A stretch of 64,000 nucleotides of DNA from an uncultured Poribacteria bacterium (GTDB taxonomy: Bacteria; Poribacteria; WGA-4E; WGA-3G): positions 558,001 to 622,000 of the forward strand of contig OX638316.1 in assembly GCA_951812525.1 (NCBI GenBank), written 5' to 3'. Every line of letters begins with the position of its first letter. The first letter of the stretch is position 1. Shown one piece after another: positions 4,830 to 62,352 of the stretch. The notes below the pieces were generated by a model. That model was not told the DNA's origin. It searched no databases and saw only the letters and a program-made list of their open reading frames with translations. Made by a program: the position numbers and the translations under genes.

Positions 4830-5654
4830 CTAATAGCTGCTTTTAACGTCGCCCCACGTCGTGGAAAGCTTGGAATGTGGATCAACTGACGTAAGGAGAC
4901 CTGGACCGGTGACAAGGACACTATCAACTCTTCCATTGCCCCAACTTTCGTGCCAGAGTCCGACAGTGCCTGGACCTGCCTCATCTGCGCCATCGTATTC
5001 AGCAACAGGATCACCGAGTTCAGAAGAATCTGCGAAAATATCCGACACTTCGCTAAGTTCCATATACCAGACCCGGATAGAGCTTCCAGAGACTTCAACG
5101 CGCGCAAAATAAGCGACGCTGTTGTCCATGGAGAGAGCATCACCTAAACCGTGGTCCACACCGAGAAGCTCGTTGCCGCCGTTTTCGCACGTACATTGGT
5201 CGAGACAATTCCCAGACGGACAACACCCATCAGCGAGACTCCCAATGATGATTTGAGGGGTTTCGATATAGCCGAAGGCAACAAGATAGCCGCTGTCATC
5301 GCCGACACGACGAAATTGGAATCCAACGCCGTCATCGTCTTGCCAGGAAAAAACGGCTTGGATAAGACCGTCAGTGAAGTTGTCAACACCAGGGAGCGGT
5401 GTATCACCGGAGATACCGCAGCCCTCAGCAGTCTGATGTAAAGCATTACTACCATCGGGGAATTCAGCGGTCTCTGCCCAAATGGTTCCAGCGTTTTCTG
5501 GCACCCAATTTGCTGGGTCGTTAACACTGGCATCGGGTATGGCATCAGAGGAGCCGGGTTCAAAATCAGCATAGAAAATTATTTGTGCGCTGGCGTGGCT
5601 AATTAACATGACTGAAAACATCGCGATAAACACCACAAGGTGGGTTCTTCTCAT
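4830..5654 (-). CDS. secreted LamG-like protein B, paralogue of the neighbour
   Basis: The 274-residue protein has a Sec signal peptide ending near HASAQ (residue 24) and then FYADFEPGS, exactly as in its neighbour at 3773-4597. It keeps the Cys cluster in the form CCPSGNCLDQCTCENGG, the block FRRVGDDSGYLVAFG, the block GTVGLWHESWGNGRVDSVLV and the C-terminus KLSTTWGDVKSSY. The ATG at 5654 lies 8 nt after GGAG; a GTG nine bases earlier is too close to that GGAG to be used. Tandem duplication of a secreted protein is evident; both copies look intact and under constraint. Location should be the periplasm or outside. Function is unknown. Confidence 0.8.
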   Translation of the reverse strand: MRRTHLVVFIAMFSVMLISHASAQIIFYADFEPGSSDAIPDASVNDPANWVPENAGTIWAETAEFPDGSNALHQTAEGCGISGDTPLPGVDNFTDGLIQAVFSWQDDDGVGFQFRRVGDDSGYLVAFGYIETPQIIIGSLADGCCPSGNCLDQCTCENGGNELLGVDHGLGDALSMDNSVAYFARVEVSGSSIRVWYMELSEVSDIFADSSELGDPVAEYDGADEAGPGTVGLWHESWGNGRVDSVLVTGPGLLTSVDPHSKLSTTWGDVKSSY

Positions 5655-6077: not shown

Positions 6078-7370
6078 CTAAACACTTTCTGATTCCTCAT
6101 ATTCCTTTAACCGATTCTGCAGCGTTCGGAGGCTAATCCCCAATATTTTCGCTGTTTTCGTCCGATTGCCGTTCTGCCATGCCAGAGTGGCACGGATGAA
6201 GGCTTCTTCCACAGTTTTGAGACTTGCGCCAAGAGGCACACTCTCGGCCTGCTGGTATTCAGGTGTGTGATTTTCTTTTGGGATGTTGACGTGTGATTTT
6301 GGGAACGCCAAAATTTCTTCGGGCAGATGGACGGGTAAGATAGCGTCCCCATCTGTCAAAAGAACTGCGTAGATTAAGGCGTTTTCTAACTCTCGTACAT
6401 TCCCGGGCCAGGGATAGCTTTGCAGGCGTGTGATGGTCTCTGGTACCATTTTACGTGCCGGCTGGGCGTAGGTCTTGCAATGTTTCTCCACAAAGTATTC
6501 TGCCAAGGCACCAATGTCTTCCTGTCGCTGGCGTAAGGGGGGCAAAGAGATAGAAACAGCGTTTAATCGATAGTAAAGGTCCTTACGGAAAGTCCCATTT
6601 GCAACCGCTCTTGCGAGGTTACAGTGGGTAGCCGCCACGATTCGGACATCCACTGGAATCGGTCTCGCACCACCGAGGCGTTCAATCTCGCCTGCCTCGA
6701 CTGCCCGTAATAATTTTGCCTGCACGGAGAGAGGCATATCCCCAATTTCATCAAGGAAGAGTATACCTTTGTGTGCCCTTTCAAATTTGCCGATGTGTCG
6801 TACTTTCGCGTCGGTAAAAGCCCCTTTTTCATGTCCAAAAAGCTCACTCTCAAGCAGCATATCAGGAATTGCGGCACAATTGACGGAAACCATCTCATTT
6901 CCTGCCCGGTCGCTGTTTTGGTGTAAGGCACGAGCTATTAACTCTTTACCTGTCCCTGTCTCACCACAGATAAGCACCTTTGCTGGCGTATTTGCGATTT
7001 TATCAATTTGTCGGAGGACCGTGAAAATCTGTGGGCTTTTCCAAATGATGTTGTCATAATTTCCTTGTAACGCATCTTTTGCAAAGGTATGAGAAGGAGA
7101 AGGTTGCGCCATTTCGCCATTTGTAACCGAGTGCGCATTATCTACCTGTTGCGGAATTGGAAGACGCCCGCCATCCTCGGAAGTCAGTAAAACCGACTCG
7201 GACTCGGTGCCTGCAGACCGGGCACTCCCGTTCTTTTTCACAATAGCGGTGCCGTAACCATCTTTCTCAAGCAGAATTTCTAAACTTCTTAGTGTCTCGT
7301 TGGGTACATCACCGAAAATAAAAACATTCCTTCTGTCAGGAGATCTATCTTCCCTTGTTCTGTAAATCAT
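6078..7370 (-). CDS. sigma-54-dependent transcriptional activator (EBP) with truncated receiver
   Basis: The protein is about 430 residues from the ATG at 7370, which follows GGAAGG; a GTG four codons earlier is possible. Residues 14-48 (VFIFGDVPNETLRSLEILLE) look like the first strand and helix of a response-regulator receiver, but the acidic pair is GD and the rest, with the phospho-Asp, is missing. A linker of about 60 residues follows. The AAA+ domain has Walker A GETGTGKE (about 136-143), GAFTDA instead of the usual GAFTGA loop (about 183-188), Walker B LFLDEIGD, the arginine-finger region RKDLYYRLN and WPGNVRELEN. A Fis-type helix-turn-helix (TKTAKILGISLRTLQNRL) ends the protein. Known role of the family: contact sigma-54 holoenzyme and drive open-complex formation. 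It lies beside the STT3 locus, which has a sigma-54 promoter. Confidence 0.93.
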   Translation of the reverse strand: MIYRTREDRSPDRRNVFIFGDVPNETLRSLEILLEKDGYGTAIVKKNGSARSAGTESESVLLTSEDGGRLPIPQQVDNAHSVTNGEMAQPSPSHTFAKDALQGNYDNIIWKSPQIFTVLRQIDKIANTPAKVLICGETGTGKELIARALHQNSDRAGNEMVSVNCAAIPDMLLESELFGHEKGAFTDAKVRHIGKFERAHKGILFLDEIGDMPLSVQAKLLRAVEAGEIERLGGARPIPVDVRIVAATHCNLARAVANGTFRKDLYYRLNAVSISLPPLRQRQEDIGALAEYFVEKHCKTYAQPARKMVPETITRLQSYPWPGNVRELENALIYAVLLTDGDAILPVHLPEEILAFPKSHVNIPKENHTPEYQQAESVPLGASLKTVEEAFIRATLAWQNGNRTKTAKILGISLRTLQNRLKEYEESESV

Positions 7371-11172: not shown

Positions 11173-11430
11173 TTAGCTGCAGGTATTGTAATATTCGCTA
11201 CAAACCCGCAACGCATCGGCTTCCGCATTTCTACAACGTTCTGCATTACCACTCCTGCACGCATTACTCGCATAATTGCTTTCCTGAGAACAATTAGCAG
11301 AAAGGTAATTACACGAGGCTCCACCGGTAGCTTCTGCCTTTTCTATCATCACGTGAAATGTCACAAATCCAAACATAAGTGCCAAGATCACTACAAAAGC
11401 AGGAACGGCGGCAATCAAAGTAGATTTCAT
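11173..11430 (-). CDS. Cys-rich secreted or anchored mini-protein, first gene of a sigma-54 operon
   Basis: The 85-residue protein starts at the ATG 11430, with AAGGAG 9 nt upstream; the open frame continues upstream but without a ribosome site. Residues 1-30 form a hydrophobic anchor or signal (LIAAVPAFVVILALMFGF). The rest carries six Cys in a regular spacing (SCNYLSANC, NACRSG, RCRNAEA, RVCSEY, NTC), consistent with three disulfides in the periplasm or outside. No homologue is recognised. A near-perfect sigma-54 promoter lies at 11672-11689, giving a leader of roughly 230 nt. Genes at 9991, 9713 and 7572 follow on the same strand with gaps of 90, 5 and 140 nt and could be part of the same transcript. 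Confidence 0.65.
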   Translation of the reverse strand: MKSTLIAAVPAFVVILALMFGFVTFHVMIEKAEATGGASCNYLSANCSQESNYASNACRSGNAERCRNAEADALRVCSEYYNTCS

Positions 11431-11638
11431 GTTAGTTTTCTCCTTTTCTCGCCATTGATGAAACAGGAATTTCGCAGACTTCCAACGGAAATCAATTTTA
11501 AATTTCCCACTCACCAATGGAAATCAACTTGTGGAAAAATCGCATGCGACCACTCCTATGAGGAAAGTCCGAGAACTGAAGTGAAACGCGCAGAGGTTCT
11601 CAATATCGCATTATGACTTTTCGTTTTAAATATCCCGA

Positions 11639-11671: not shown

Positions 11672-11689
11672 AAGCAATTTGTGTGCCAA
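11672..11689 (-). promoter_or_regulatory. sigma-54 promoter of the Cys-rich peptide/STT3 locus
   Basis: On the minus strand it reads TTGGCACACAAATTGCTT. The -24 GG and -12 GC are separated by exactly 10 bases and the flanks match the consensus TTGGCAC-N5-TTGCTT. The first gene downstream starts at 11430. Confidence 0.8.
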
Positions 11690-12853: not shown

Positions 12854-15796
12854 CTATAGATTGCGTAAGGGTAGACGTAGAAGTCCGCGGCGTTCTGTGC
12901 CGATATAAATGACATTTTCAGCAACAACAAGAGAGGTTACTTGTTCAGGGACTTCTGAAGTAATCAGCATCCAGGTCCCCGTATCGTTGTCCAATCGATA
13001 GACTCCTGTCTGGGAAATGCCGTAGAGGGTTGTGCCATCGACTGCCAATTGCCCCATAGAGATCGGGGTATTCTCTGAATCGGTGAGTAGATGCCAATTT
13101 TCGCCATCATCTGACATCGCAACTCCATCATCCGTTGAGACATAGACGGTGCTACCAGCGAAGACTATCTCTTTGAAATAGGGCAATTTCTTTAGGGTCT
13201 GGTCCTGTGCCTCCGCTCTGTTAAGTGAAATGGGTAAATCTGGCGTAACATCTCTCCAAGTATCTCCACCGTCCAGGGATTGACAAAGCTGCCCGTTGCT
13301 TTTGCCGAGGTAGACAACTTCTCCTGAGACAGCGAATTGGAACCCATCCGTAGCATAAAAATCAGCGTATACAGGAGTATCTTGCGCGCCAATGTCATGC
13401 CATTTGAGATCGCCTGGAGCCCATCGATAGAGTTTTCGGTCATATTCGACATAGAATGTATCACCGCTTACGACGAATTCGTCTGTTGTTTTTGTCGTCG
13501 CTCCACCGATGCCAAATTGATAGTGGGAAAAGTCTGCCCCACCTGTCTCATTTAGATCAGATGTGCTTGCGATATACGTTATGTTCTCCAATCCGTTGCT
13601 ATAGCTCGGATCCACATAAACCGGCATATCTTTAATAGGAAGAAGCGTATCGGTACCCGCAGGTAAGTGGAAAAAATAGTTTGTACTTCCACCTTGCTGT
13701 GCTCTAACGTAAAGCGAATTCTCAACAGTCGTTATATCTGACAACCGAAACGCACCAAATGATTCACCTAAAGAGTGTGGCAACTCCGTTCCGAGATAGG
13801 TCCATAGCTCTCCACCGTCGGTGGATTTTGCGATACCTTTGTTGGTTGTGACGTAGAGTACATTATTAGCTTGTGCGAGATCAAGAACATGGAGTTCCGT
13901 TATACCTCTCATGAAAACGTGCCAAGTACTACTACTGTCAATAGAACGTCTGACTCCACCTGTTCCAGCTACAAAAACAGTATTTTCGTCTAAGGCTACT
14001 GCGGGGGAAGTACTGAGCGTAAATCCATATTTGTTAAAACCCAAATGTTCCCATGTATCGCCAGCATCTTCTGAGTGTAACACGCCAGCTCCGAGTATGA
14101 AAATAGTCTCTTCCACGGCGACAAGCTTAACAGATCCAACAGCCAGTGGAGATGTTTGTCTCCGCAGATCCGTGGGTGTTATGTCAGACCACGACTGTCC
14201 AAAGTCATCCGAAACGAAAAACGATCTAGGTCGCCAGTCGTCTTGTTTTTCAGCACTGAAGTAAATTCTGTTGTCAGCAACTGCCAATGAATCAATAGAT
14301 TGTGTCTGCGCGATTGGCAATTTTTCCCACACACTTGAATTGAGCCGGTAGACCCCTCGCTTAGTTCCCAAAAAGAGTACGTTTCCAATGGCAGCGGCAT
14401 CTTGTATTTGTAGTTCACTCAAACCATCATTAAACGCACCCCATGTGTCGCCAGCATCCATTGAACGAAATACACCATCTGCGAGAACAAAGTACATTTC
14501 CATCTCGGCATCCTGTGGACGGCTCTCTTGAATTGGTCCAGTAATGAGCAAGGCGATAGCACTTCCTTGTGGACGTGCACCGATGTGGACCCACGTCTCA
14601 CCGCGATCTGTTGAAGCAAATAGGTCGGTCTGCGTGGCAATATAGAGGATTCCGTTCCATTCCGCCATCGGCTCACTCTGGTGCGTTAAGGGTAGAGAAG
14701 CGTTGATGAGGGCCCACTCGGCTCTATTGTCGTCATCCAACCGGTAGAGTCCAGCACCACCGACGGCGTAAAGCTCCTTTTGGGCTGTGAGAAACAAATT
14801 TCTTACCTCTCCACCTGTTAGTTCCTTTGCCTGAGTCCACTGTGGTTCTGTCTCCAGCACTTCTGCATCCGACTGCGTTGCGGATAGCAGCTGCGCATCT
14901 GCTTTTGAACCGGCACTACTGCTTCTACCGACCGTATTCGTGTTACCCTGTTGCGTTTTTATGTCAGGCTTTAGCTTCAACGGGAGGACAACGGGTGCTT
15001 CTACTATTTCTATTGTTACCTCAGAGACCGCGTCCAAGCTATAAGGCTGTTGAAAACGGAATAGTGCCGACCGACCGAACCCCATCATTAGGATAATCAT
15101 TAGAGCCGATGCGAAAGAGAGTCCCAACGGCAACCAAGGTGGTTTACTCACAGCAGGAGAAGCTGGTTTGATGCGGGCGACTTCTCGCATGATGTTTTGG
15201 GTTAGGGTTGGCGGCAATTGGAAGATGCCTGAGACATCGTGGAGGAGATGTTCTTGATTCTTTAATCTTTCGCGGGCGCGGTGGAGACGGCTTTTAATGG
15301 TGTTGGGAGATACACCCAAAAATTCACTAATATCTTTACAAGACATCTCAGAGACATAGTGCATCGTTATGACAGTGCGCTCGCTCTCTGGAAGCTTTTC
15401 GAGGAGACGCTTGACGAGGTCGCGCTGGTGATCAACGCTTGCTGCTTCGCCGCGTGCTGTCTCATATTGGGCGTAAGATACCTCTTCGAGTTGAAGTGCA
15501 GGCATGGCGTCGAGCGATACCGTTGGAGACTGTTTCTTTCGGAGCCATGCAATACAACGCCGCGAAGCAATGACATAAAGCCAGCCGGAAAAATGATACG
15601 GCGGTTTCAGCATCGATAACTTTTTGTAAGCTTTTAGGAAGACATCTTGCGTGATTTCTTCGGCGATATGAAAATCACCGATTTTGCGCCATACAAGGGT
15701 GTGTACCCGTTTTTGGTATTTATTAACGAGCGTCGTAAAGGCGTCTTGGTCTCCATCTAAAACACGCTGGATCAGGTCAGTATCGTTGGTTTTCAT
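12854..15796 (-). CDS. membrane ECF sigma factor fused to a BNR/Asp-box beta-propeller
   Basis: The 980-residue protein combines three parts. Residues 5-90 are sigma-70 region 2 (AEEITQDVFLKAYKKL, SGWLYVIASRRCIAWL) and 128-180 are region 4 with its helix-turn-helix (CKDISEFLGVSPNTIKSRLHRARERL). A single membrane helix lies at 222-241 (WLPLGLSFASALMIILMMGF). After a low-complexity linker (250-330), residues about 340-975 hold about eight Asp-box repeats of the form S-x-D-x-G-x-T-W (STDRGETW, SMDAGDTW, SDDFGQSW, SEDAGDTW, STDGGELW, SLDGGDTW and others) typical of BNR or Ycf48-like propellers. Topology should be sigma domain inside, propeller in the periplasm. No separate anti-sigma gene is present. 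A sigma-54 promoter lies about 75 nt upstream. The frame is continuous with no sign of error at the junctions. Confidence 0.9.
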   Translation of the reverse strand: MKTNDTDLIQRVLDGDQDAFTTLVNKYQKRVHTLVWRKIGDFHIAEEITQDVFLKAYKKLSMLKPPYHFSGWLYVIASRRCIAWLRKKQSPTVSLDAMPALQLEEVSYAQYETARGEAASVDHQRDLVKRLLEKLPESERTVITMHYVSEMSCKDISEFLGVSPNTIKSRLHRARERLKNQEHLLHDVSGIFQLPPTLTQNIMREVARIKPASPAVSKPPWLPLGLSFASALMIILMMGFGRSALFRFQQPYSLDAVSEVTIEIVEAPVVLPLKLKPDIKTQQGNTNTVGRSSSAGSKADAQLLSATQSDAEVLETEPQWTQAKELTGGEVRNLFLTAQKELYAVGGAGLYRLDDDNRAEWALINASLPLTHQSEPMAEWNGILYIATQTDLFASTDRGETWVHIGARPQGSAIALLITGPIQESRPQDAEMEMYFVLADGVFRSMDAGDTWGAFNDGLSELQIQDAAAIGNVLFLGTKRGVYRLNSSVWEKLPIAQTQSIDSLAVADNRIYFSAEKQDDWRPRSFFVSDDFGQSWSDITPTDLRRQTSPLAVGSVKLVAVEETIFILGAGVLHSEDAGDTWEHLGFNKYGFTLSTSPAVALDENTVFVAGTGGVRRSIDSSSTWHVFMRGITELHVLDLAQANNVLYVTTNKGIAKSTDGGELWTYLGTELPHSLGESFGAFRLSDITTVENSLYVRAQQGGSTNYFFHLPAGTDTLLPIKDMPVYVDPSYSNGLENITYIASTSDLNETGGADFSHYQFGIGGATTKTTDEFVVSGDTFYVEYDRKLYRWAPGDLKWHDIGAQDTPVYADFYATDGFQFAVSGEVVYLGKSNGQLCQSLDGGDTWRDVTPDLPISLNRAEAQDQTLKKLPYFKEIVFAGSTVYVSTDDGVAMSDDGENWHLLTDSENTPISMGQLAVDGTTLYGISQTGVYRLDNDTGTWMLITSEVPEQVTSLVVAENVIYIGTERRGLLRLPLRNL

Positions 15797-15868: not shown

Positions 15869-15886
15869 GAGCAAATTTTGTGCCAA
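15869..15886 (-). promoter_or_regulatory. sigma-54 promoter of the ECF-propeller gene
   Basis: Minus strand TTGGCACAAAATTTGCTC, with GG and GC 10 bases apart and a perfect -24 core. Expected transcription start is near 15859, giving a leader of about 63 nt to the ATG at 15796. Confidence 0.85.
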
Positions 15887-16116
15887 TTCCCTCAATAAAT
15901 CGCAATATCTGCACGAAAACCTTCAAAATTTGCTGGAATTTTGTATAATAAACCGCCCAAAATGTAGACGGTCACTACGTTTATCAAAAAGTGCATTAGC
16001 GTTCATATTTTTTTAAAAAAACTGTTTTACCGAGGAAATGAAAACCTGTTTGTAGCCATTTTTCTACTACTAAAATACAATAAATGTAGCATAAGGAACA
16101 AAAATTGTATTAACTA

Positions 16117-62334: not shown

Positions 62335-62352
62335 GAGCAAGTTTTGTGCCAA
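62335..62352 (-). promoter_or_regulatory. sigma-54 promoter of the YqiJ-YqiK operon
   Basis: Minus strand TTGGCACAAAACTTGCTC, GG and GC 10 bases apart; only one base different from the promoter at 15869. Transcription start near 62325, leader about 70 nt to the ATG at 62255. Confidence 0.85.

Follow-up and report, generated by a model that had tools for sequence, protein, structure and literature searches.

The gene on the minus strand at positions 12,854 to 15,796 of the window, by which we mean the whole stretch of 64,000 nucleotides of DNA from an uncultured, sponge-symbiont Poribacteria bacterium that was analysed, encodes a protein of 980 residues that is probably a signalling channel in one piece: an ECF sigma factor that is tethered to the membrane, carries a sensor propeller on the outside, would be inhibited by its own linker and released by proteolysis, and would act on TGCAAC-type target promoters. 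Computation yielded the architecture of this protein, its intact sigma factor under purifying selection, a transmembrane helix with a charge bias, the propeller fold, and a promoter motif together with its covariation.

Architecture of the protein

The single reading frame starts with ATG, contains no internal stop and is immediately preceded by a GGAGGAG ribosome-binding sequence. Sigma region 2, which serves core binding and -10 recognition, comprises residues 23-89 (15,530 to 15,730, minus strand like all features of the gene; Pfam PF04542 Sigma70_r2, E=1.3e-12), and region 4 with the -35 recognition helix-turn-helix comprises residues 126-178 (15,263 to 15,421; PF08281 Sigma70_r4_2, E=1.1e-17). 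Only these two regions are present, both above the family cut-offs, which places the protein among the ECF (sigma70 group 4) factors and agrees with the intact ECF sigma factor that a first-pass annotation had seen here. The solved structures closest to this N-terminal part are SigW, E. coli sigmaE and AlgU-type sigma factors. A cytoplasmic linker with a conserved helix follows (residues 183-210, 15,167 to 15,250), which is a candidate built-in anti-sigma segment, and then the one strong transmembrane segment of the chain (residues 222-240, 15,077 to 15,133; KD mean 2.05), the single membrane helix of that annotation. A helix with KD of at least 1.6 is found at the same place in 73 of 74 members of the family, and across the 74 members the mean net charge is +2.4 in the 20 residues preceding it and -0.1 in the 20 residues after it. 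This positive-inside bias argues for an N-in/C-out topology, as had been predicted. On the outer side lies the juxtamembrane motif RFQxPY (residues 247-252, 15,041 to 15,058), which is present in 12 of 13 transmembrane members of the own genome as found with the sigma query; its invariance in 73 relatives is partly circular, because the pattern by which these were collected itself contained RFQxPY, and only the own-genome paralogs count in this respect. With a C-terminal transmembrane helix and an extracytoplasmic domain in the same chain, the protein has the layout of the fused transmembrane ECF sigma factors.

The ectodomain (residues 331-976, 12,869 to 14,806) was delimited by an AlphaFold (AF2) model, and its limits come close to the residues 340-975 initially assumed. 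In the model it consists of about 14 four-stranded BNR/Asp-box blades with a block pLDDT of mostly 80-94, which probably form two seven-bladed propellers. Pfam recognizes PSII_BNR, Sortilin-Vps10 and BNR repeats from about residue 390 onwards, within the same 980-codon frame as the sigma factor, which bears out the proposed uninterrupted fusion of the two. The best PDB matches in Foldseek are GH74 xyloglucanases (2cn2, 2cn3 and 6p2n; E to 8e-22, prob 1.00), and a profile search leads to 2cn3 as well (E=6e-22). The tandem seven-bladed propellers that are typical of GH74 have their counterpart in the approximately 14 blades counted by strand order, but the sequence identity is 13-15%, the likeness is one of fold and profile, the first of the two catalytic aspartate sites of GH74 lies outside the profile alignments, and here the ectodomain is fused to a sigma factor and a transmembrane helix. 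The next Foldseek matches are the Bacteroides glycan sensors (HTCS) BT4673 and BT4663 (PDB 3ott and 4a2l), which likewise combine a large propeller-type periplasmic sensor and a DNA-binding output in one protein; their output, however, is a kinase/regulator hybrid instead of a sigma factor, and the superposition is partial, with TM values of 0.2-0.3. From these structural models a polysaccharide is a reasonable guess for the ligand.

In the own genome, which has 5.06 Mb on one contig, the sigma part has about 18 close paralogs, and 12 of these run through the same linker and transmembrane helix into an ectodomain in one frame. Six of the 12 ectodomains are of the BNR type, three paralogs possess leucine-rich repeats (L023, L028 and L026, the last one also with a GHL15-like domain), one has Kelch repeats (L030), and two carry a small domain without a Pfam match that looks Ig-like by eye (L025 and L033). 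A scan of named genomes retained 78 further loci, all labelled Candidatus Poribacteria, and some of these relatives have WD40 ectodomains. In the search for the same domain order in other genomes, as initially proposed, 75 of the 78, all from other assemblies, proved to have an uninterrupted frame for sigma factor, transmembrane helix and ectodomain, and the other three end at contig ends. Two own-genome paralogs are built differently: L034:910-3891 (G000:C1:1415409-1418390) is fused to an M61-type peptidase, has no transmembrane helix and possesses an ECF-type promoter, and L032 (around G000:C1:1671054-1671428) is a truncated sigma paralog with an internal stop beside an intact one.

Proposed holding and release of the sigma factor

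The gap between the sigma part and the transmembrane helix measures about 40 residues, which is short for an anti-sigma factor. Pfam gave neither a zinc-finger nor a FecR match at E<=1, and a built-in anti-sigma domain of either type was rejected on these grounds. The linker is nevertheless conserved, as residues F192, Q193, L198, T199, I202 and E205 are nearly invariant among 71 sequences, and a helix is predicted at residues 198-208 with a block pLDDT of about 80. The full-length AF2 model, with a pLDDT of 40-80 in the sigma part, offers no information there; residues 1-262 were therefore modelled separately, which gave models of moderate confidence (pTM 0.64; pLDDT of the five models 46-74). 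They fit best to sigma-anti-sigma complexes (SigW-RsiW, TMt 0.68; CnrH-CnrY, TMt 0.71), above holoenzyme-bound sigma factors, and this fit, read together with the tendency of AF2 toward compact sigma factors in any case, weakly suggests that the linker is a minimal anti-sigma factor. The neighbouring genes code for a Planctomycete cytochrome c domain protein, an SNase-like protein and a 2-hydroxyacid dehydrogenase. There is no anti-sigma or receptor gene adjoining the sigma gene, and as far as its neighbours are concerned the protein does without a separate anti-sigma factor, as had been supposed.

Sensing, the type of ligand, autoinhibition and proteolysis are steps that we infer, and they would combine as follows. 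Its own transmembrane helix would anchor an active ECF sigma factor on the inner side of the cytoplasmic membrane, while the tandem propeller outside would sense a ligand, for which a polysaccharide or a protein from the sponge or biofilm environment is most likely. In the resting state, the sigma factor would be kept off RNA polymerase by the tether and by the conserved linker, whose roughly 40 residues would serve as a minimal built-in anti-sigma factor. Ligand binding or damage to the ectodomain would open the juxtamembrane segment to a site-1 protease, and a subsequent cut within the transmembrane helix by a site-2 protease (M50/RseP-type) would free a fragment of sigma factor and linker. 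The freed sigma factor would then proceed to TGCAAC-type promoters, which in most members would include that of its own gene in addition to genes for secreted repeat proteins, whereas the expression of the member studied here would be set by a sigma-54 promoter instead. A release by proteolysis is favoured by analogy with IutY and SCO4117 (PMC8999054, PMC5826349). The own genome does encode a site-2 protease (M50), but such proteases are to our knowledge near-universal, and its presence therefore carries no weight for the cleavage.

Alternatively, the sigma factor could be active while it is tethered, in the style of ToxR or CadC, with the ectodomain altering its state or clustering and with RNA polymerase being recruited at the membrane without any cleavage. 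The linker could provide the reach for this, and the transmembrane helix is under little sequence constraint, its dN/dS relative to the nearest ortholog being above 1 for 21 codons, which are too few to weigh. However, a sigma factor has to enter and leave the core polymerase, which a membrane tether hinders, and the characterised fused transmembrane sigma factor IutY is activated by RIP (PMC8999054); we consider tethered activity unlikely. Another arrangement that we regard as rather improbable is control by a separate partner in the style of cell-surface signalling, where a trans-acting anti-sigma factor or an outer-membrane receptor would bind to the propeller and the ectodomain would be a docking platform and not a sensor. 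Propellers are indeed typical platforms for protein-protein contacts, and the WD40-containing ECF57 sigma factors have been proposed to act via protein interaction (PMC8999054), but neither kind of partner is encoded next to the gene, and unrelated ectodomain folds have been exchanged while the module of linker, transmembrane helix and RFQxPY was kept. Proteolytic release of an autoinhibited sigma factor is the reading that we prefer.

Promoters, selection and spread of the family

The promoter of the gene itself is of the sigma-54 type, as TTGGCACAAAATTTGCT at positions 15,870 to 15,886 (minus strand) is a perfect -24/-12 match that precedes the ATG by 90 nt. In the own genome, TTGGCACN5TTGCW has 26 matches compared to 7 for the reversed pattern, RpoN is encoded along with over 10 strong AAA domains of sigma-54 activators, and the nearest ortholog, L042, has a perfect site as well, at -88. 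Sigma-54 control of this gene is well supported as a statement about sequence. Among the 75 relatives, however, L042 is the only one with a perfect site, and three others (L058, L063 and L066) have a site with one mismatch besides an ECF promoter, so that sigma-54 as the general promoter of the family was rejected. The earlier idea that one alternative sigma factor is placed under another thus stands for this gene, which is an exception in its family. A possible degenerate ECF-type promoter, TAATGCAC..N..CCGTCTACATTT, lies further upstream at -202 (15,960 to 15,998, minus strand); its out-of-sample score of 18.3 was reached by 0 of 500 shuffles, but its spacer of 15 is not used in the relatives and its -35 element is broken (TTCAC) in L042. 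Elsewhere in the window, a sigma-54 activator AAA domain is encoded at about 6,549 to 7,049, two further perfect sigma-54 sites are located at 5,499 to 5,514 and 62,336 to 62,351, and a perfect site at 11,673 to 11,688 lies upstream of the gene for a small protein that is rich in Cys and has a hydrophobic N-terminus (11,173 to 11,517).

In the family at large, ECF-type promoters prevail. The own-genome paralogs are preceded by TTATGCAACCTTT-N13/14-CGTC (leave-one-out scoring), and 63 of 75 independent relatives have a TGCAAC-N-CGTC promoter in their upstream regions that scores above a level reached by 1% of shuffles; the spacer is 13 or 14 throughout, and the position has a median of -76. Judged on the relatives, these promoters fit the AAC-type -35 and CGT-type -10 elements that are the hallmark of ECF promoters (PMC8103513). 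In 85 genomes of the phylum, the motif has 1,043 sites compared to 66 for the reversed control, and its count follows the copy number of the family (rho 0.86 over the 85 genomes and 0.82 within the genus), with 18.5 sites per genome where at least four family copies are present and 0.8 in the rest. The strict form of the motif has 13 sites in the own genome and none for the reversed pattern. Three of these precede paralogs (L031, L035 and L030), and others precede genes for proteins with hydrophobic, leader-like N-termini, including by eye the propellers L121 (FG-GAP-like), L129 (Kelch) and L131 (TolB-like) and the LamG-like protein L125. As the sites lie ahead of paralogs and of leader-bearing repeat proteins, it is probable that sigma factors which carry repeat ectodomains activate genes for secreted repeat proteins.

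The whole chain is 74% identical to that of L042, and in this comparison dN/dS amounts to 0.05 in residues 1-95 with region 2, 0.04 in residues 120-182 with region 4, 0.12 in the juxtamembrane part and 0.24 in the ectodomain, so that both sigma regions and the ectodomain are under purifying selection; the residues of the sigma part are nearly invariant across 71 members. Also the promoters covary with the sigma regions that would read them. After removal of the ectodomain distance, distances in region 4 track those of the -35 box with a partial r of 0.50 (p 0.0005) but show no relation to those of the -10 box (0.00 in the same test), while region 2 tracks the -10 box (partial r 0.35, p 0.0005). 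The result is similar with the linker distance as control. These controls are ectodomain or linker distances and not a full phylogeny, and since residues 1-50 also correlate with the -10 box (0.21), some shared ancestry remains in the covariation. By eye, a TGAGAC-type -35 box pairs with an AAIKNRLY-type recognition helix, and TGCAAC pairs with NTIKSRL. This pattern is the trace expected of self-recognising sigma factors, and the promoters are probably self-recognised. The sigma part looks functional by these measures, and a dead sigma factor was rejected in view of the low dN/dS, the invariant residues and the covariation; the early reservation that region 4 might be unable to act is answered to the extent that purifying selection, conserved residues and the -35 covariation can do so. 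That the sigma domain is a passenger on a surface propeller protein, no longer working and amplified as a repeat by recombination, would agree with the large lineage-specific copy number and the tandem arrays, but with a dN/dS of around 0.05 in the sigma regions, invariant sigma residues, an abundant promoter motif and its covariation we think that this is very improbable.

The module of linker and transmembrane helix was counted in the 85 genomes of the phylum Poribacteria, where it occurs at least 1,564 times. All 59 genomes of the host's taxonomic family possess it (at least 1,547 copies, the score of a genome being capped at about 51), with 2 to at least 51 copies per genome in 38 members of the host's genus; other families of the same order have 0-3 copies per genome, and none were counted in other orders of the phylum. 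Many copies form tandem arrays with a spacing of about 3.1 kb. One such locus (L139:543-16277, genome G005) is a tandem row of five transmembrane sigma genes that each possess their own ECF-type promoter. An assembly or sequencing join of two genes, which the first-pass annotation had named as a caveat, can practically be dismissed, as dozens of independently assembled Poribacteria genomes and 12 paralogs in the own genome show the same fusion.

Two other sigma fusions were observed in the own genome. L040:972-2165 (G000:C1:171971-173164) encodes a protein of 398 aa that joins an ECF sigma factor to an FtsZ/tubulin GTPase domain; the latter consists of the FtsZ N-terminal domain only and retains the GGGTGAG motif, while a separate full FtsZ is encoded elsewhere in the genome. 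This fusion is full-length with about 400-445 aa in 15 of 17 other genus members tested, a longer form (mostly 1,350-1,430+ aa) is present in many, and it was not seen in the other families tested. L039:1004-2743 (G000:C1:2420003-2421742) encodes a protein of 580 aa in which an ECF sigma factor is joined to an entire DNA polymerase III beta clamp with all three clamp domains; at least 12 of the 17 genus members tested have this fusion at full length with 576-582 aa, sometimes within about 5 kb of the FtsZ fusion, and the beta clamps in the other families tested are unfused only.

Relation to known single-chain sigma factors

Signal-to-sigma pathways normally consist of a receptor, an anti-sigma factor and a sigma factor, and here a single chain seems to combine all three. 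A wider reading, which we regard as possible though short of probable, is that one bacterial family made the ECF sigma factor into a receptor repertoire, with tens of self-contained transmembrane sigma factors per genome, exchangeable eukaryote-like ectodomains (propeller, LRR, Kelch, Ig-like) and regions 2 and 4 that co-evolve with their own promoters, so that partly insulated, self-amplifying channels would lead from the sponge environment to transcription. Such chains have been copied in one lineage to an extent that is otherwise typical of two-component or TonB-dependent transducer systems. For the eukaryote-like repeat proteins of Poribacteria, a part in the interaction with the host has been discussed without a function being assigned, and Kamke 2014 (PMC3909097) does not mention sigma factors. 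Some of these proteins would now have a definite task, namely to form the external end of a switch for transcription. In addition, ECF promoter specificity could be studied on the naturally occurring covariation between sigma factors and promoters, and single-chain sigma factors are attractive as synthetic sensor parts. In the literature searched, which did not extend to the main ECF classification papers, there is no report of a Poribacteria transmembrane sigma family, its copy number, the exchangeable ectodomains or the sigma/promoter covariation, and the size of the repertoire and the promoter co-evolution appear to be unreported.

As membrane-tethered single-protein ECF sigma factors are known from ECF52 (SCO4117) and IutY, the kind of system as such is already known. 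The concept of a single-polypeptide transmembrane sigma factor that is activated by proteolysis has been described for ECF52, ECF48, ECF53 and IutY (PMC8999054). ECF52 (SCO4117 of Streptomyces), ECF48 and ECF53 likewise have an ECF sigma factor, a transmembrane segment and a periplasmic sensor of the sugar-binding type in one chain, with suggested autoregulation and a proposed proteolytic release (PMC8999054, PMC5826349). They differ in possessing a zinc-finger (ZAS-type) anti-sigma domain between sigma factor and membrane, in place of which the protein studied here has its linker of about 40 residues without a match at E<=1. Moreover, ECF52 is exclusive to Actinobacteria and has a proline-rich stalk (PMC5826349), whereas the relatives found here are all Poribacteria (78 of 78), have a tandem propeller or other repeats, and number in the tens in a single genome. 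In Pseudomonas putida, IutY (ECF243) depends on Prc and RseP for its activation (PMC8999054). It is similar in that its sigma factor is fused C-terminally to a membrane segment and a periplasmic part, but its fused membrane part is a FecR-like anti-sigma factor and it acts with an outer-membrane siderophore receptor, while the protein described here has neither a FecR match nor such a neighbour. ECF57, described as regulated by protein interaction with a conserved Cys pair that links sigma2 and sigma4 (PMC8999054), is by description similar in its outer shape, as it joins a sigma factor to a C-terminal repeat-propeller extension, and some relatives in the present family carry WD40 repeats.
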